From assembly GCA_903833215.1 (NCBI GenBank), contig CAILEM010000123.1, forward strand, positions 1 to 62,091: 62,091 nt of DNA, in the 5' to 3' direction. The notes under the pieces were generated by a model that saw only the letters and a list, made by a program, of their open reading frames with translations, did not search any database and had not been told where the DNA came from. Shown here one piece after another: positions 2,467 through 47,533 of the stretch; position 1 is the first letter of the stretch, and the number at the start of each line of letters is the position of its first letter. The position numbers and the translations under genes are program-made. This DNA is from an uncultured Armatimonadota bacterium. Lineage in GTDB: Bacteria; Armatimonadota; Fimbriimonadia; Fimbriimonadales; Fimbriimonadaceae.

Positions 2467-2640
2467 ATTAGGGGGATTCGCAGAGGAAGCTACGATGCCG
2501 TGGAGGAGCTAATCGAGACGATAGGCAACTATCGCTAAGTGAACAACGCAGACCCAGTGCCCTTCAAGTGGATGGCTACTCCAGAGTCGATTATCGCGAA
2601 CGTTGACCGATGTCGAAAGAGTTACGAGACTCTACACTCG
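2467..2640 (+). pseudogene. IS630-type transposase C-terminal remnant
   Basis: Conceptual translation gives IRRGSYDAVEELIETIGNYR, a TAA stop at 2536-2538, then VNNADPVPFKWMATPESI and IANVDRCRKSYETL. This is the pattern of the last ~60 residues of IS630-family DDE transposases (the family reads roughly RRGxFxSVxEL...I..Y..xHN.xPKPFxWTxxxxxIlxxV). No upstream transposase domain or terminal inverted repeat is visible, and the remnant runs into the 3' end of the minus-strand potassium transporter. It is a decayed scar of a past insertion. Confidence 0.75.
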
Positions 2641-4521
2641 CTGACCTCCCTCTTTGCCCAAATACCACGGGACGTTGATGACGACTACTCGATGGTCACC
2701 TCTCCACAATAGGGCAGCTTTCAACCAGGTCGCGCGCTGATTGTGGAGAGGATACTGGTACCAGCGGGCCTCCACCAGTTCCGGCAATGTGACGGCAATG
2801 ATCCGGTTTGGATTCTGGATTTGCAGGTCATGCACGTATTCCAAAAGGGGATGGAATAATCGCCGGTAGGGCGAGGACACGACGACGAATTGCGGTGTCT
2901 GCAGCCCGGCAGCTTCGCACGGGTCTACGACAAGCGCTTCCCACTCCCTCTGAAGCCCCGGAAGTTTCTGGGGATCAGAACTGATGTGAAGCACTTGGAC
3001 CTCGGGGGAAATCCGCATGGCAAACCGCAGTGCCTTCGCGGAAATCGTGCTCCATCGCCCAATTGGGACGACAACAATCGGCGGCTGCAGATTGTCGACG
3101 ACCATGGGACACGGTGAAAGGGTCTCGACAATAACCTTTTCATAGTGCCGCTTCACAGAAAGAAACACCACGTAGATTCCAGGAACGAGGAGCAGAGTGA
3201 TCCAAGCACCATCCGCGAACTTGGCAAAGAGGACGACGACAATCGCTATTCCCGTCGCTACCGCTCCCAATCCATTAATCGTTTTCGAAAGGGTGTGCTT
3301 CTTCCCTTCTTGGCGACGCCAATGCTGAACCATGCCCGCTTGCGACAACGTAAACGCAAGGAATGCTCCGATCGCGAAGAGAGGTATCAGACGATCTGTA
3401 ATTCCGCCAAACGCAATCAACAGGACCGCAGTGAACGAGGCCAGGATGCAGATGCCGCCTGAATAGACAAGTCGACGTCCCCGGGTCGCGAACGCGTGCG
3501 GAAGGAAATCATCCTCTGCCAAAAGGCGGCACAGCCTCGGGAAATCAGCGAAACCCGTGTTGGCAGAAAGGGCTAAAACGAGCAGGACGCTGCCGATGGT
3601 GAGGTAATAGAAGCCACCTCGGCCGACCACTGCAGCCGTCAGCTGGGACAGCACACTCTGATAGTTTGCCGCGGTTGGATCGGTTGCGCCAATGTGATAG
3701 GCGTTGCAGAGGTAAGCGATTCCCGCAAGCATCACGCCCAGCAATGCGACAATGACTGTCAAAGTTTGCTGCGCACGCTTGACCGCAGGGCGAGCAAACA
3801 CGGTGATCCCGTTGCTCACTGCCTCTACTCCCGTCATGGCGGTACACCCACTGGCAAACGATTTCGCGAGTAACCACAAATTGGCGGTGACTAGGGCTTT
3901 GGGTAAAAGTGGAGGGACTTCCACAGGCAAGGGGTGACCGTGCTCCGCGACTGAACGCACAACGCCGATTGCAATGACCAACAACAGACAAACGATGAAC
4001 GAGTAGGTTGGTAAAGCAAACACGATGCCTGACTCTTTAACACCTCGAAGATTCACTATCGTAATGACTGCCAGGACGCCAAGACAGAGTGGGAGGATAT
4101 GTGGAAGCATCGACGGCATCGCCGAAACCAATGCTCCAACGCCGGCTGAGATACCTACTGCTGCCGTAAGGACGTAGTCCACGAGCAGTGCAGCCGCGGC
4201 AAAGAGCCCCGCTGTCGTCCCCAGGTTTGTCTTGGCTACGGTGTATGAGCCTCCGCCGGTCGGATACGCATTCATCGTCTGCCGATAGGACAGATAAAGG
4301 ATCAGGAGTATCCCGAGGATGATCGCACTGATCGGCCCAACATACCAAAGCCCTGCTGCTCCCAACGGAATCAGCAGGGTTAAAGCCGCTTCTGGGCCAT
4401 AGGCTGCCGACCCAAGGGCATCAAGCCCCAGCATCGGAATTCCCGCCCAGACGGTTACTTTATGTTGTTCTTCGTTTGCCGAAGCAATCGGCTTTCCGAG
4501 AAGTCGGTCGAGGAAACTCAT
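2632..4521 (-). CDS. kimA: KimA/YdaO-like APC-superfamily potassium:proton symporter
   Basis: About 629 residues with roughly twelve membrane segments (residues ~20-460) followed by a ~170-residue cytoplasmic tail. This matches KimA (formerly YdaO) of the APC superfamily, a high-affinity H+-coupled K+ importer. Family-like segments include GLDALGSAAYGPEA near the N terminus and a Pro/Thr/Gly-rich NAYPTGGGSYTVA motif. It is the last gene of the kdp operon, only ~10 nt after the kdpC stop, which supports K+ as substrate. I chose the ATG at 4521. An upstream TTG at 4557 would add 12 residues and overlap kdpC by 26 nt. An amino acid/polyamine permease role is the alternative, but less likely given length, tail and context. 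Confidence 0.8.
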   Translation of the reverse strand: MSFLDRLLGKPIASANEEQHKVTVWAGIPMLGLDALGSAAYGPEAALTLLIPLGAAGLWYVGPISAIILGILLILYLSYRQTMNAYPTGGGSYTVAKTNLGTTAGLFAAAALLVDYVLTAAVGISAGVGALVSAMPSMLPHILPLCLGVLAVITIVNLRGVKESGIVFALPTYSFIVCLLLVIAIGVVRSVAEHGHPLPVEVPPLLPKALVTANLWLLAKSFASGCTAMTGVEAVSNGITVFARPAVKRAQQTLTVIVALLGVMLAGIAYLCNAYHIGATDPTAANYQSVLSQLTAAVVGRGGFYYLTIGSVLLVLALSANTGFADFPRLCRLLAEDDFLPHAFATRGRRLVYSGGICILASFTAVLLIAFGGITDRLIPLFAIGAFLAFTLSQAGMVQHWRRQEGKKHTLSKTINGLGAVATGIAIVVVLFAKFADGAWITLLLVPGIYVVFLSVKRHYEKVIVETLSPCPMVVDNLQPPIVVVPIGRWSTISAKALRFAMRISPEVQVLHISSDPQKLPGLQREWEALVVDPCEAAGLQTPQFVVVSSPYRRLFHPLLEYVHDLQIQNPNRIIAVTLPELVEARWYQYPLHNQRATWLKAALLWRGDHRVVVINVPWYLGKEGGQRV

Positions 4522-4531
4522 AGAACCAAGA

Positions 4532-5185
4532 TCATAACGCCTTTCCGACTTTATCAAGCGCTAAATTGAGCCTTAGCACATTTACCGCGGGATCGCCAAA
4601 CACTCCGATAAACCTTTGCTGAGTGTTTTCTTCGATGAGATGAGTGACGTCGTCTAGATGCATATGGCGAGCCGCTGCGACCCGCGGTGCCTGGAGGTTG
4701 GCGTTCTCTGGGCTTATGTCTGGGTCGATGCCGCTTGCGGACCTGGTAGCGGCATCAGCCGGTACCAGTGCATCCTTCGCGAGGTTGTTCTCTTTTCGAT
4801 AGGCATCAGCCAAATCCTTGATTCCATCGAAGTTGCTCGGATCATCCTTTCCGTCGGCGGTCTTCTTGTGTATGCCGTTGATGAGCTTATCGCTCGTAGG
4901 TCCTAAGTTCGTTCCTGATGAACCCGCATAGGAGTGATCCTTATCAAACGTGCCGTAGCCCAAGTCTCCCGTTCCGGATGGTCTGGGGTGGAAATACTCT
5001 GGCTTTGAGAACGGCTGAGCGATGAGTTCGGATCCGATGAGATCGCCTTTGGCGTTCTTAATGAGACTCCCATTGGCTTGACGTGGCATTAGCTTGCCGA
5101 TAGCGTACAACGAGTATGGAAACGCTAACCCGGTGAATACCGTGAAGAACAGCGTTAACAGAATTGCAGAGCGAAGTTGTTTCAT
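4532..5185 (-). CDS. kdpC: potassium-transporting ATPase subunit KdpC
   Basis: 217-residue small accessory subunit of the KdpFABC potassium pump. It has one N-terminal membrane helix (about residues 7-30) and a periplasmic domain with the family landmarks GSELIAQPFSKPEYFHPRPS and a C-terminal ...RLNLALDKV. It raises K+ affinity of the complex. It is somewhat longer than the ~190-residue E. coli protein because of extra sequence in the middle (about 95-150). It starts 4 nt after the kdpB stop. Confidence 0.96.
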   Translation of the reverse strand: MKQLRSAILLTLFFTVFTGLAFPYSLYAIGKLMPRQANGSLIKNAKGDLIGSELIAQPFSKPEYFHPRPSGTGDLGYGTFDKDHSYAGSSGTNLGPTSDKLINGIHKKTADGKDDPSNFDGIKDLADAYRKENNLAKDALVPADAATRSASGIDPDISPENANLQAPRVAAARHMHLDDVTHLIEENTQQRFIGVFGDPAVNVLRLNLALDKVGKAL

Positions 5186-5189
5186 GGGT

Positions 5190-7280
5190 TTATGCCAAGT
5201 GGAGAACTACAAGAAGTCGATCGATGAGCCAAATACCGGGGAATGGAGCAATGATGCCTCCAACTCCATAGATAAGCAGATTCCTTCGCAGGATCTGAGC
5301 TGCACTGGCAGGTCGATACTGCACTCCGCGAAGAGCAAGAGGAATAAGCAGGACGATGATCAAAGCATTAAAGATAACCGCAGACAAAATGGCCGATTGG
5401 GGATTCGTCAGTCCGATGATATTCAGTGCTTTGAGCTCAGGATAGGTCACGGCGAACATTGCTGGAATGATCGCGAAGTACTTTGCGACGTCGTTGGCGA
5501 TACTGAACGTAGTCAGTGAGCCGCGAGTCATGAGCATTTGCTTGCCGATCTCAACAATCTCGATGAGCTTGGTTGGGTTCGAGTCGAGGTCCACCATGTT
5601 CCCCGCTTCCTTGGCCGCCTGAGTTCCTGTGTTCATTGCGACTCCGACATCAGCTTGTGCCAGTGCAGGAGCGTCGTTCGTACCGTCGCCTGTCATCGCA
5701 ACCAATCTTCCGCCCGACTGTTCTTGGCGAATATAGGCGAGCTTCATTTCAGGGGTTGCTTCGGCCAAGAAATCATCGACACCTGCCTCAGCTGCGATCG
5801 CTGCAGCGGTCAACGGGTTGTCGCCAGTGATCATCACTGTCTTGATTCCCATTGCGCGCATTTGGTCGAAGCGGGTCTTCATGCCACCCTTGACGATGTC
5901 CTTCAGTTGAATCACGCCCAGCACTTTGTTGTTTTCAGCGACAGCAAGGGGTGTCCCGCCTTCTTTCGAAATCCGCTCAATAATCTCCTGGACTTCACTT
6001 GGCATCTTGCCACCTTGCTCTTCAACAAACCGCTGAACAGATTGTCCAGCACCTTTGCGAATGAGTCGCCCCGGCAAGTCGACTCCGCTCATGCGAGTCT
6101 GAGCCGTAAATGGTACGAATTCAGCGTTGAGAGATTCCATATCTCGCTCTCGCAGTTCGTATTTCTCCTTTGCCAGGACGACAACACTTCGTCCTTCCGG
6201 TGTTTCGTCGGCAAGGGATGCAAGTTGGGCTATGTCGGCGATCTCGTGATCCGTAACACCAGGTGCAGGATGGAAAGCGGTAGCTTCACGGTTGCCGAGT
6301 GTGATCGTTCCCGTCTTGTCTAGCAACAGCGTATTGACATCACCAGCCGCTTCTACGGCCTTTCCACTCATAGCCAATACGTTGTGCTGCATGACTCGAT
6401 CCATTCCTGCAATGCCAATGGCGCTGAGCAGTCCACCGATCGTGGTTGGGATGAGACACACAAGCAAGGCGACCATGACTGTGATCGTTGGCACCGAACC
6501 GGCATTCGCTGAGCGAACACTGTAATGTGCGAAGGGCAGAAGAGTTACCGTCGCGAACAGAAAGACAATCGTCAAACCCGAAAGCAAGATCGACAGAGCG
6601 ATTTCATTAGGAGTCTTTTGGCGTTGGGCACCCTCGACTAGAGCGATCATCCGATCTAGGAAGGACTCGCCAGGATTGCTTGTGACCCTAATGACGACAC
6701 GATCGGAAAGGACCCGTGTTCCGCCGGTTACGGCAGATCGATCTCCACCACTTTCACGAATGACGGGTGCCGACTCTCCGGTAATAGCCGATTCATCGAC
6801 GCTCGCAATTCCTTCGATGACTTCGCCGTCGGCAGCAATCATGTCTCCCGCCTCGCACACATACATGTCGTTCTTGCGAAGTTCAGGTGCGGCGACCTGA
6901 GTTTCGACCCCGTTAACGAGCTTGCGGGCGATGGTGTCCGTTCGCGCCTTTCGCAAGGAGTCGGCTTGGGCCTTTCCTCTTCCCTCTGCCATGGCTTCGG
7001 CAAAGTTAGCGAACAGTACCGTGAACCAGAGCCAAATGCAGACCTGGGCCACAAACAGCGTGTCGGCAGAGTGGGTGACTGCACCCCTGATCCAGAAATA
7101 GGTTGTCACGACGCTGCCTACTTCCACCACGAACATCACAGGGTTCTTCGCCACCATGCGAGGATCAAGCTTGATAAACGCCTCTCGTGATGCCCGCTTA
7201 ACGATGGATGGTTCGAACAGCTTAGCCGGCGCGTTTTTTGGCCGGGTGAACGATTCTTCGATTTGATTCATTGGTTTCAA
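5190..7280 (-). CDS. kdpB: potassium-transporting P-type ATPase subunit KdpB
   Basis: 696-residue P-type ATPase that hydrolyses ATP to drive K+ uptake through KdpA. Visible signatures are the actuator TGES (in [11 protein letters not shown], ~residue 170), the phosphorylation loop DKTGTIT (~residue 320), the hinge [15 protein letters not shown] (~530), and the hydrophobic segments expected for seven TM helices. Length is close to the usual ~680. It is preceded by a 67-nt gap carrying a hairpin and followed 4 nt later by kdpC. All catalytic motifs are intact. Confidence 0.98.
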
Positions 7281-7347: not shown

Positions 7348-9213
7348 CTAGACAGGCGGCTGCATCAGGGCCATCTTGAAATGTTCAACTATCGGTCCCA
7401 ACGCCAGTGCTGGGAAGAAGGTGAGGACATTGATCAAGATCACCACGCCGATGAGGAGGGCCACAAACGTTCCTGAGTCCGTGGCAAACGTTCCCGAAGA
7501 TTCCGGTACACGCTTTTTGGCGGCCAGACTTCCAGCAATCGCCAAAAGGGGGATGATCATCAGGAATCGTCCAACGAGCATGGCGATCATTCCAGTGGTG
7601 TTGTAATGCGGCGTGTTTGCCGTAATTCCTGCAAACGCAGAGCCGTTATTGCCAGTTGACGAGGCGTACATGTACAGGATCTCGGAAAATCCGTGAGCGC
7701 CAGAGTTGTTAGTGTTGTTGGTGGTCGCGCCAAGATAGTTGCTTGGCGAACTTCCATTCACGTGGTTCCAACTTGCCATTGCAGGCAACTTTGCTTCGTC
7801 TGCGGTGTGTTTGTCGTCAAATGTCTGAGCACTTGTGCCTGGCGGATACGTCGTATTCGCACTGAGCGCACTGAATCCCAAGATGCTGGCAGCAAGGATC
7901 AGGGTCGCGAGCATCGACATCTGAACCTCGAACTTTTCAATCTTCTTCCCGATGTACTCAGGAGTTCGCCCAACCATCAGGCCCGCTATGAAGACTCCTA
8001 TCACGGCGAACATCAGCATTCCGTATAGGCCAGCACCCACACCGCCGAAAATAACTTCCCCGGTGAGAATATTGAACAGCGGGACCAAGCCGCCGAGCGG
8101 TGTAAAGCTGTCGTGCATACCGTTGACTGCGCCACACGAGGCGTCTGTAGTTACAGTTGCAAACAATGTGGTGGCACCGATGCCAAACCGCGTCTCCTTA
8201 CCCTCCATGTTCCCACCGGGCTGAGTCTTGGTCTGAGCAGTCATCACACCTGCTTTTGCCACGAATGGATTGCCAGCTTGTTCCGCAACATTACAAACAA
8301 CGGCACCTGCGATGAACATCACTGACATCGCGCCGAAGAGCGCCCAACCCTGTCGTGTGTTTCCGACGAGCTTGCCAAATGTGTATGTCAGCCCTGCCGG
8401 AATGCAGAAGATCGCAATGATTTGAAGGATGTTGATGAAGTTGCTTGGATTCTCAAATGGATGGGCCGAGTTGGCATTAAAGAATCCACCACCATTTGTG
8501 CCGAGCATTTTGATGATCTCTTGCGACGCAACTGGCCCCATGGCGATCGTTTGCTTTGCACCTTCAAGGGTCGACGCAATCTGGTTAGGTAAGAAATTCT
8601 GGGGAACCCCACCCGCAATGAAGATAATTCCGCCGACGAATGCGATCGGAAGCAAAATGTAAATTGTTGATCGAACCGTGTCGACCCAAAAATTGCCAAT
8701 TCCCTTAGCCGATCGCCGAGAAAATCCACGAATCAATGCGATAGCAATCGCCATACCGGTTGCTGCCGACATCCAGTTGTGGATTGCCAACGAAACCATG
8801 TTGGAGAAGTAGCTGACCGTCATTTCTGGCGAATAGCTCTGCCAGTTTGTGTTCGTGGTAAACGAGGCGGCTGTGTTGGCTGCAAGGTCCGGGGTCATCT
8901 GACTCCCATTGAATCCTTGCGGGTTCAGGCCAAGGAAATTTATCATGCCTTGGGTCCGTAAAAGGGCGTAGGTGAGAATCATCCCAACAACGCTGAACAG
9001 CAGCATCGCGATGGCATAGGTTGTCCACCGCATATCGTCCTCTTCACGAACGGCACACAGCCGATAGATCAGCTTCTCAAGCGGCCGCAGTATTGGGCTA
9101 AGAAAAGTTTTCTCACCCTCATACACCCTGGCCATGTAACTGCCAAGTGGTTTCGTGATGACGAGGATAATCCCGAAGTAGAGCAGGATTTGAAGGAGTC
9201 CATTGACTGTCAT
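7348..9213 (-). CDS. kdpA: potassium-transporting ATPase subunit KdpA
   Basis: 621-residue channel-like subunit that binds and translocates K+ in the KdpFABC complex. It starts with the typical LLQ...KPLGSYMARVYEGE helix and has the selectivity-filter-type repeats, for example MLGTNGGGFFNANSAHPFENP and NNGSAFAGITANTP. It is about 60 residues longer than E. coli KdpA. Most of the excess is a hydrophilic stretch (about residues 455-500: TTYPPGTSAQTFDDKH ... NNTNNSG) inserted before the GAHGFSEILY element, which should be an extracytoplasmic loop. The start ATG at 9213 lies 3 nt after the kdpF stop. Confidence 0.97.
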   Translation of the reverse strand: MTVNGLLQILLYFGIILVITKPLGSYMARVYEGEKTFLSPILRPLEKLIYRLCAVREEDDMRWTTYAIAMLLFSVVGMILTYALLRTQGMINFLGLNPQGFNGSQMTPDLAANTAASFTTNTNWQSYSPEMTVSYFSNMVSLAIHNWMSAATGMAIAIALIRGFSRRSAKGIGNFWVDTVRSTIYILLPIAFVGGIIFIAGGVPQNFLPNQIASTLEGAKQTIAMGPVASQEIIKMLGTNGGGFFNANSAHPFENPSNFINILQIIAIFCIPAGLTYTFGKLVGNTRQGWALFGAMSVMFIAGAVVCNVAEQAGNPFVAKAGVMTAQTKTQPGGNMEGKETRFGIGATTLFATVTTDASCGAVNGMHDSFTPLGGLVPLFNILTGEVIFGGVGAGLYGMLMFAVIGVFIAGLMVGRTPEYIGKKIEKFEVQMSMLATLILAASILGFSALSANTTYPPGTSAQTFDDKHTADEAKLPAMASWNHVNGSSPSNYLGATTNNTNNSGAHGFSEILYMYASSTGNNGSAFAGITANTPHYNTTGMIAMLVGRFLMIIPLLAIAGSLAAKKRVPESSGTFATDSGTFVALLIGVVILINVLTFFPALALGPIVEHFKMALMQPPV

Positions 9214-9216
9214 GAC

Positions 9217-9303
9217 CTAGAACTTCTCCGGCTTTACGAGGGCGTAAAGCAGATAAATCAGCAGCAAGAGGCACACGATCGATGTCCAGATGTAGTCACT
9301 CAT
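9217..9303 (-). CDS. kdpF: KdpF small subunit of the K+-transporting ATPase
   Basis: 28 codons: MSDYIWTSIVCLLLLIYLLY then ALVKPEKF and TAG. A single hydrophobic helix with the ALxxPE(x)F ending is the hallmark of KdpF, a ~29-residue peptide that stabilises the KdpFABC complex in the membrane. Its ATG sits inside the end of the preceding 34-codon ORF (ATGAGTGA overlap), and its stop is 3 nt before kdpA. Confidence 0.92.
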   Translation of the reverse strand: MSDYIWTSIVCLLLLIYLLYALVKPEKF

Positions 9304-9400
9304 CAGCGGCACCGCCTCGCAGCTTTTCACATGCGTAAACGTAAGCAATGGCTATTGCGAAGAACAACAGCCCCATAACGACGTACAGGATGTCCTGCAT
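9296..9400 (-). CDS. conserved-looking 34-residue membrane peptide upstream of kdpF
   Basis: Translates as MQDILYVVMGLLFFAIAIAY then VYACEKLRGGAADE: one transmembrane helix ending in a Y(V)xxCExLR motif. It has a strong ribosome site (AAGAGGA 7 nt before the ATG) and overlaps kdpF by 8 nt, so it is almost certainly translated and coupled to kdpF. Short single-helix peptides of this style occur before kdpF in other phyla. I recall this from family knowledge and cannot verify it here. Likely an accessory peptide of the Kdp complex. Confidence 0.75.
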   Translation of the reverse strand: MQDILYVVMGLLFFAIAIAYVYACEKLRGGAADE

Positions 9401-9402
9401 TT

Positions 9403-9555
9403 CTATTTCCTCTTGGAGGAGGTTCCGCTATCTGGCTTGCCGTCAACTTCATTGATGTCATTTCCATGCTCCGATTGCCCTCGAAAGGCCGCCGCTGGTT
9501 TTGCCAGGCAAATAAGAACAAAGAGAAATGCAACGTACTGAAGCCAGGTGTCCAT
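9403..9555 (-). CDS. 50-residue small membrane protein opening the kdp operon
   Basis: ATG at 9555, stop TAG at 9403-9405, 2 nt before the next ORF. The N-terminal hydrophobic segment WLQYVAFLFVLICLAKPA is followed by a hydrophilic 28-residue tail. The spacing LQ-(12 residues)-KP is identical to the first helix of KdpA downstream (LLQILLYFGIILVITKP), so it looks like a copy or mimic of KdpA helix 1. A G-rich SD-like run (GGGGGG) precedes the ATG, and a promoter candidate lies at 9572-9599. The evidence is a strict operon layout and family-like residues. No homologue search was possible. Confidence 0.6.
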   Translation of the reverse strand: MDTWLQYVAFLFVLICLAKPAAAFRGQSEHGNDINEVDGKPDSGTSSKRK

Positions 9556-9571
9556 GCGCCCCCCAACCGTG

Positions 9572-9599
9572 AATCTAGTTTGCGGATGGGGCTGGTCAA
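9572..9599 (-). promoter_or_regulatory. candidate kdp operon promoter
   Basis: On the minus strand TTGACC (9594-9599) and TAGATT (9572-9577) are separated by 16 nt, ending 16 nt before the ATG at 9555. It lies between the rpmA terminator and the first kdp ORF. No KdpE-type operator or c-di-AMP riboswitch structure is recognisable in this short leader. Confidence 0.5.
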
Positions 9600-9668
9600 C
9601 GAGGCATAAGGCAGAGTGGAGCGAGCGTAAGGAAAGAGTAAAGACGTCCGCAAGGCACGGAAACGCAC

Positions 9669-9702
9669 AAAAAAACGGGGCAAGAGAATGAACTCTTGCC
9701 CC
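9669..9702 (-). terminator. rho-independent terminator of rplU-rpmA
   Basis: On the minus strand GGGGCAAGAG, a 6-nt loop TTCATT, and CTCTTGCCCC form a perfect 10-bp stem followed by C and seven U residues. It lies 24 nt after the rpmA stop. Confidence 0.93.
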
Positions 9703-9725
9703 GCCTGTAATTTCTGAAGGTGTTG

Positions 9726-46033: not shown

Positions 46034-47533
46034 TTAGCCTGCATTCCTGAATCCATCTGCCTCATCCCAAACAGATCGAACATTCGTTGCCGAGACATGC
46101 CGACTTGCGGTGTGCTCGGCAACGCTTACGATTGAGCCCAGTTCTGGTGGCAATTCTGCTTGCCCCCATTCAGCGAACTCTCGCCCTAAGAACCCAGTGT
46201 CAATTTGACCAAGCCCGAAATCTGGGTGATCCAACACGTCGAGCATATAGCCGATGTTCGTAGTCACTCCCAGAATGTGAAAATCCAAGAGTGCAAATCT
46301 CATTCGCTGAATCACTCCCTGGCGACTGTCGCTGTGGCAAATCACTTTTGCGATAAGCGAATCGTAAAATCGCGTTACTTCAGCGTTAACACCGAAGCCT
46401 GTGTCGACTCGAATTCCGGGTCCCTTGGGTTCTGCCCATCCGAGGATCGTACCGATCGACGGCATGAAGCCTTTCGCGGGATCTTCCGCCACAATTCGCA
46501 CTTCCATGGAATGTCCGCAGATCGCTTTTCGATCGCCAGCCATGAGTGAGGACGCAAGGGTGAGTTTCTCGCCACTGGCGATTCGAAGTTGCCACTTGAC
46601 GAGATCGACCCCAGAAACGAATTCGGTCACAGGGTGCTCGACTTGGAGGCGTGTGTTGACTTCCAGGAAATAGAACTTCCCTTCTGCCTCATCTACCATG
46701 AACTCGACAGTGCCCGCACCGACGTATCCTGATGCCTTTGCTAAGCGGCGAGAAGCCTCACACATCTCTTTCCACATCTTCGGGTGATCGGATAGGTAGG
46801 GTGAGGGAGCTTCCTCAAGCAACTTTTGGTGGCGTCTCTGAAGCGAGCATTCTCTTTCAAAGAGGCAAGCCACATTGCCGTGCTGATCTGCCAGTAACTG
46901 GACTTCGATGTGTCGGGGACGCTCTACAAGCTTCTCCACCATCATCTTGCCGTCGCCAAAGGCCTTCTCAGCCTCATCAGAGGCGGTATGCAGTTCTTCG
47001 TGGAATATGGCAGGGTCACGGACAATTCGCATTCCGCGACCGCCTCCACCTGCCGATGCTTTCAGCATGACTGGGTATCCAATCGCTACAGCAGCAGCGC
47101 AGAGTTGTTCGTTGGTCGCAGATACATCAAATAATCCAGGGACAATCGGAACCGACTCCTGCACGGCAATCGACTTCGCGGCGCTCTTTGAACCTAGAAG
47201 TCGCATCGCAGATGCAGGTGGTCCAACAAAAATGATGCCAGCGTTTGCACATGCTTCGCTGAACTCGGCGCGTTCACTCAAAAAGCCATAGCCTGGATGA
47301 ATCGCATCGACTCCCAAGCTGATGGCGGCCGCTATGATCTTCTTGATATCCAGGTAGCTCTCTGCTGGAGTATTTCCACCCAAGGCGCTCGACTCATCGG
47401 CCAATCCGGTATGAATCGCGTTGGCATCGGCATCGCTGTAGACGGCAACGGTGCGTATCCCCATCTCACGGGCAGCCCGGATAATCCTCACTGCGATTTC
47501 ACCGCGATTGGCAATCAGAAGTTTTCGAATCAT
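46034..47533 (-). CDS. biotin carboxylase subunit of an acyl-CoA carboxylase
   Basis: 499 residues. ATP-grasp biotin carboxylase: KLLIANRGEIAVRIIRAA, GYGFLSERAEF, the glycine loop ASAGGGGRGMR, and EVNTRLQVEHPVTE. The C-terminal part (GVTTNIGYMLDVLDHPDFGLGQIDTGF) resembles propionyl/methylcrotonyl-CoA carboxylase alpha chains rather than AccC. The biotinyl carrier (BCCP) domain with the EAMKM motif is absent, so a separate carrier protein is required. It overlaps the enoyl-CoA hydratase gene by 4 nt, which points to leucine/branched-chain acyl-CoA degradation. Confidence 0.92.
   Translation of the reverse strand: MIRKLLIANRGEIAVRIIRAAREMGIRTVAVYSDADANAIHTGLADESSALGGNTPAESYLDIKKIIAAAISLGVDAIHPGYGFLSERAEFSEACANAGIIFVGPPASAMRLLGSKSAAKSIAVQESVPIVPGLFDVSATNEQLCAAAVAIGYPVMLKASAGGGGRGMRIVRDPAIFHEELHTASDEAEKAFGDGKMMVEKLVERPRHIEVQLLADQHGNVACLFERECSLQRRHQKLLEEAPSPYLSDHPKMWKEMCEASRRLAKASGYVGAGTVEFMVDEAEGKFYFLEVNTRLQVEHPVTEFVSGVDLVKWQLRIASGEKLTLASSLMAGDRKAICGHSMEVRIVAEDPAKGFMPSIGTILGWAEPKGPGIRVDTGFGVNAEVTRFYDSLIAKVICHSDSRQGVIQRMRFALLDFHILGVTTNIGYMLDVLDHPDFGLGQIDTGFLGREFAEWGQAELPPELGSIVSVAEHTASRHVSATNVRSVWDEADGFRNAG

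Follow-up and report, generated by a model that had tools for sequence, protein, structure and literature searches.

The kdp operon analysed here lies on the minus strand of a 62,091-nucleotide stretch of DNA from an uncultured Armatimonadota bacterium, the whole of which is referred to as the window. Two small open reading frames, ORF50 (9403-9555) and ORF34 (9296-9400), precede kdpF (9217-9303; 28 aa, with matches to PF09604 and TIGR02115), which is followed by kdpA (7348-9213; 621 aa), kdpB (5190-7280) and kdpC (4532-5185; TIGR00681). The genes at the head of the operon are tightly packed: there is a 2-nt gap between ORF50 and ORF34, the end of ORF34 and the start of kdpF share 8 nt (ATGAGTGA, 9296-9303), and 3 nt separate kdpF from kdpA. 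ORF34 encodes a 34-residue single-span protein, MQDILYVVMGLLFFAIAIAYVYACEKLRGGAADE, and ORF50 a protein of 50 residues that likewise has one span and ends in a polar tail of variable sequence. The first-pass annotation had reported two ORFs of these lengths and spacing 5' of kdpF, each with one hydrophobic helix and an SD-like site, and its coordinates agree with ours; each ORF contains one hydrophobic segment, and GGGGGG and AGAGGA are found 5' of ORF50 and ORF34, respectively. Beyond kdpC, and overlapping it by 26 nt, is a gene for a 641-aa APC-type transporter (2632-4557, minus strand) that has a weak match to TIGR00909; it is possibly a second potassium importer, perhaps KimA-like. Genes for KdpD are located elsewhere in the genome, away from the kdp operon.

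Upstream of these genes, a terminator-like hairpin 3' of rpmA, encoding bL27 (9673-9706, minus strand), is probably where the kdp transcription unit is bounded on its upstream side. A promoter candidate had been proposed 5' of the ORFs; the hexamers of a weak sigma-70-like site, TTGACC-16-TAGATT, are present (9572-9599, minus strand), although chance alone would give 1.1 sites of this type in the window. Control by KdpE is suggested by a second element. KdpE of E. coli binds TTTATA and TTTACA with 5 bp between them (PMC3264566), and the same spacing is seen at 9627-9642 (minus strand; TTTACTCTTTCCTTAC), where two TTTAYA-like half-sites, 11 bp apart, are separated by a 5-bp spacer. On this pattern match, the site is a candidate KdpE operator. 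The pattern TTTAY-N6-YTTAY, which recovers the E. coli KdpE site, gave 16 matches in the 67 upstream regions taken from the window's phylum and 13 in the 79 other loci, against 0.2 expected for each from single-base shuffles, and kdpA coding sequence was nearly free of it. The window contains two occurrences compared with 0.29 expected from dinucleotide shuffles; the other match is located at 46353-46368 (minus strand). The distance from operator to ORF34 is 103 nt in G004, a genome in which ORF50 is absent, and 242-275 nt in three genomes that have ORF50. The candidate operator is upstream of both ORFs, with ORF50 between it and ORF34, and both would therefore lie inside the operon.

ORF34 is far from peculiar to this genome. 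An ORF of 30-36 codons occupies its position in all 20 kdp loci first examined, which were drawn from the genus, family, and order. An HMM built from 96 members of the family was run over 159 kdp loci and gave a sense-strand match in 149, with an antisense maximum of 5.7 bits. In the window's phylum, 56 kdp loci had enough upstream sequence and were not used in training; scores exceeded 10 bits in 48 of these, and exceeded 12 bits in 78/78 testable named GTDB loci, all but four of which belonged to the training set. The named GTDB contigs were brought in by a KdpA search, and this set is biased towards Acidobacteriota and Alphaproteobacteria because it is made of the kdpA matches nearest the query. 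Within it, ORF34-type ORFs are found 5' of kdpF in Acidobacteriota, Alphaproteobacteria, Myxococcota, Verrucomicrobiota, Chloroflexota, Gemmatimonadota, and others; Deinococcota, Actinomycetota, and Betaproteobacteria also have members of the family, whose position is nearly always directly 5' of kdpF. Among plasmid and chromosome records, the HMM was positive for Streptomyces, Nonomuraea, Deinococcus, Allomeiothermus, Mycetohabitans, Acetobacter, Sinorhizobium, Phenylobacterium, and Paracoccus, and did not find ORF34 in those of E. coli, Raoultella, Lactiplantibacillus, Enterococcus, Synechocystis, or Halobacterium; the outcome was uncertain for Rhodococcus and Niallia. The first-pass annotation had described two extra ORFs at the head of the operon. 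This description holds for ORF50, which is a local addition, but ORF34 is an old companion of kdpF in multiple phyla and is therefore not ‘extra’ here: it is a usual part of the kdp operon outside enterics and some other groups.

The ORF34 family has the core MxD-x9-FF-x5-Y-x3-C[ED][RK]L, and the ORF34 of the window belongs to it by a sense-strand HMM match beside kdpF. Over 146 sequences, conservation is 99% for D3, 69% for F13, 78% for F14, 67% for Y20, 89% for C24, and 93% for L27; position 25 is acidic in ∼81% and position 26 basic in ∼85%, and half of the sequences are exactly 27 residues long. An SD-like sequence precedes ORF34 in 119 of 146 loci, as judged by a loose pattern. Among the four closest genomes, pN/pS is 0.18-0.36 for ORF34 compared with 0.07-0.29 for kdpF. 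ORF34 thus stands far above chance and is almost certainly a gene, single-copy in this genome and located at kdp. At L060, a locus from a Spartobacteria MAG, ORF34 has a further ORF34-like peptide (MQDFILFLLIVVVFALPLTSLWLCEK...) encoded 5' of it, perhaps as a tandem duplicate. An AlphaFold2 model of ORF34 from a 40-sequence alignment, which is silent on partners, is a single helix over residues 3-32 (pLDDT 89).

Existing annotation has largely passed over these peptides. Searches with ORF34, ORF50, and their homologues gave no significant Pfam, NCBIfam, or PDB match; single matches of homologues, such as BcsF-like and FixQ-like ones, scored under curated cut-offs and were set aside as chance. 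A named or characterised ORF34 family was not found in the open-licence literature, outside which most subscription papers fall, and the family is without a curated model. Most members are unannotated or hypothetical in RefSeq. The Mycetohabitans member WP_212667346.1, which sits 5' of kdpF and scores 28 bits (E 1.2e-7) with the ORF34 HMM, is named ‘potassium ABC transporter ATPase’, and this name is misleading, since a peptide of 34 residues with one span cannot be an ATPase or an ABC transporter.

The arrangement of ORF34 and kdpF bears on what is selected at this site. The start of kdpF is at most 25 nt after the ORF34 stop in 134 of 139 measured loci, and the two overlap in 38; overlaps of 8 nt, as in the window, or 4 nt recur in many loci, and the 8-nt overlap is probably a site of translational coupling. 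Such overlaps would also be seen if the ORFs were leader peptides or upstream ORFs, whose translation matters through coupling or attenuation and whose peptides do not. We regard this as very improbable, given that residues of ORF34 are conserved across phyla and its pN/pS is far under 1, and that an Rfam search for a riboswitch or leader gave no match and the window has no terminator-like hairpin from the operator to kdpF. On an Allomeiothermus plasmid (L190, 1319-1495), moreover, the order is kdpF, the ORF34 homologue, and kdpA, not ORF34, kdpF, and kdpA, which argues against ORF34 as a mere leader peptide.

Some loci depart from the usual arrangement. At four kdpA loci (L166-L169) kdpF and ORF34 are both absent; L166, L167, L168, and L169 are second kdpA copies in several genomes of the window's phylum. 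Three further loci (L157, L165, and L170) have kdpF and no detectable ORF34, which counts against ORF34 being a subunit of the pump. The same is true of E. coli, where KdpFABC is functional without an ORF34 homologue. Coding, adjoining kdpF in several phyla, carrying conserved residues, and absent jointly with kdpF, ORF34 is nonetheless probably an additional single-span Kdp subunit. It would be made together with KdpF as a single-span membrane protein; by the positive-inside rule, its N-terminus would be outside and its Cys-acidic-basic-Leu end at the cytoplasmic surface. The helix would pack against the membrane domain of KdpA/KdpB, as KdpF would, and so stabilise or tune the Kdp complex.

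Small Kdp peptides may also have effects other than as structural components. Overproduced KdpF peptides alter the behaviour of mycobacteria (PMC3618439, PMC5382158), and KdpF has been termed a regulatory peptide (PMC5401905). These precedents make regulatory effects possible for ORF34, which is among the first genes 3' of the candidate operator, and instead of being a pump subunit it might sit in the membrane as a regulator, with the sensor kinase KdpD or kdp expression among the possible targets. KdpD is encoded elsewhere in the genome, whereas ORF34 nearly always adjoins kdpF and goes missing with it from the four kdpA loci described above, and we consider such a role improbable. Whether ORF34 began as a divergent duplicate of kdpF, giving two KdpF-type helices per complex, is a matter of its origin and is compatible with its being a subunit. 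The two genes adjoin, the topology deduced for their products is identical, and their profiles are weakly similar across 21 columns (hhalign 37%). This origin is still rather unlikely, for ORF34 is not recognised by PF09604 or TIGR02115 and in place of a KPE[KR]F end conserves a different motif, C[ED][RK]L.

The first-pass annotation took the two ORFs together, and this needs correcting because they differ: ORF34 spans multiple phyla and ORF50 is lineage-specific, confined to three or four species. Orthologues of ORF50 in G019 and G012 (loci L002 and L003) share the position of the start codon and a hydrophobic segment that ends in Lys-Pro, and G011 has a possible distant orthologue. Neither the tail nor the 50-residue length is conserved; the reading frame of L002 and L003 continues through ORF34. 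A scan for single-span ORFs that end at the start of ORF34 found them in 9 of 146 loci; these are heterogeneous, and only that of L011 (TM-KP) may be related to ORF50. In L117, L122, and L132, all from the window's phylum, another single-span ORF lies just 5' of ORF34 (e.g. MDAWYGLLALVAFIVAVKLYTWCQMLYWSS...), at first sight not related to ORF50. A search for copies of ORF50 in its own genome beyond the kdp locus found none.

Selection on ORF50 is visible over its first 26 codons, where pN/pS is 0.31-0.47 in frame and exceeds 1.1 in each of the other two frames; synonymous sites are close to saturation. This part is under purifying selection, and ORF50 stands out beyond chance over these ∼26 codons alone, in no more than three to four genomes. 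With a KdpE-like operator 5' of both ORFs and low pN/pS in each, the earlier proposal that they lead the kdp operon and behave as coding is borne out; the check suggested with it, for a lack of conservation or an excess of nonsynonymous changes in relatives, left both standing.

A likeness between ORF50 and the N-terminal helix of KdpA, which had been noticed because the two share the LQ-(12)-KP spacing found in helix 1 of KdpA, is supported by profile comparison. The spacing is present in ORF50 (LQYVAFLFVLICLAKP vs LQILLYFGIILVITKP). Against a KdpA N-terminal profile, ORF50 scored 16.2 bits, and shuffles of its first 26 residues reached at most 8.2; among 19,451 fragments compared with that profile, it ranked above all other non-KdpA sequences (14.0 bits, E 0.03). 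A three-sequence ORF50 profile was aligned by hhalign with the KdpA N-terminus at 93%, in register over 28 columns that include the Lys-Pro exit, a score reached by 0/200 column shuffles and 1/200 helix-core shuffles. The possibility that ORF50 is a paralogue of KdpF or ORF34 was rejected, with hhalign values of only 3% and 7%, respectively. One ORF50 orthologue scores only 3.8 bits with the KdpA N-terminal profile, and ORF50 has no Pfam match up to E 10, including KdpA (PF03814). Identities reach 10/26 with KdpA helix 1 of other organisms and are 4/26 with that of its own operon, and ORF50 is therefore unlikely to have been copied recently from the local kdpA. The N-terminus of the second-copy KdpA at L167, VQYAVFLICLLALVKP, is also ORF50-like.

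ORF50 could thus be derived from the 5' end of a kdpA gene or have arisen by convergence. Its presence in three or four species only, its absence from G004, the lack of conservation of tail and length, and a likeness restricted to about the first 28 residues of KdpA would all be expected of a chance ORF or a decaying kdpA 5' remnant that has no function. We hold this to be a serious possibility, if somewhat short of an even chance: the start codon position is retained, the ORF is located between operator and ORF34, and pN/pS is low over 26 codons in this frame only, with synonymous sites nearly saturated. ORF50 is probably a lineage-specific accessory peptide, with a decaying remnant nearly as likely. 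Such a peptide might act in KdpA assembly or compete for the helix-1 site, which is the weakest part of the explanation.

Taken together, we favour a reading, with a probability of roughly 0.6, in which ORF34 is a KdpF-like extra single-span subunit of KdpFABC and ORF50 a lineage-specific peptide of the same operon. A bolder version, that the Kdp pump of most bacteria has five subunits including ORF34 and that a sixth peptide here imitates KdpA helix 1 and controls pump assembly, seems doubtful to us. KdpFABC is a textbook P-type ATPase, known from the E. coli structures as a four-subunit complex. If the favoured reading is true, the usual Kdp complex outside enterics has another helix, as ORF34 is linked to kdpF in many phyla and absent from E. 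coli; it would have been overlooked because work has centred on E. coli, which itself lacks ORF34. Untranslated leaders of 100-120 nt have been described 5' of kdpF in Caulobacter (PMC8552747) and M. smegmatis (PMC5401905). These are roomy enough to encode an ORF34-type peptide, and relatives of the two organisms, Phenylobacterium and perhaps Rhodococcus, have an ORF at this position.

Several known systems offer points of comparison. KdpF is a 29-residue subunit of E. coli KdpFABC, and ORF34 resembles it in being tiny and single-span, adjacent in the same operon, and of the same predicted orientation. It differs in that KdpF ends in KPE[KR]F, whereas ORF34 has the pattern MxD...FF...Y...C[ED][RK]L and is a separate gene beside kdpF; after the helix, the family has C[ED][RK]L where KdpF has its C-terminal [KR]PE[KR]F, and the KdpF profiles PF09604 and TIGR02115 match kdpF and do not match ORF34 or seven of its homologues. 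ORF50 follows the register of the KdpA N-terminal helix (PF03814) without the remainder of KdpA. In C. acetobutylicum, kdpZ and kdpY reportedly encode small hydrophobic peptides, for which we know of no function, and the operon of Alicyclobacillus acidocaldarius is said to be kdpZFABCN. The C. acetobutylicum operon is reported to be transcribed as kdpZYABCXDE, as cited in PMC5401905, and is thus headed by extra genes, as is the case with ORF34. In the window, too, a small hydrophobic ORF lies 5' of a KdpF-like gene and kdpA, and ORF34 and kdpZ may be genes of one kind, likened by operon position and description. Phospholamban and sarcolipin, one-helix partners of P-type ATPases (PMC10654040), serve only as a working analogy for ORF34.
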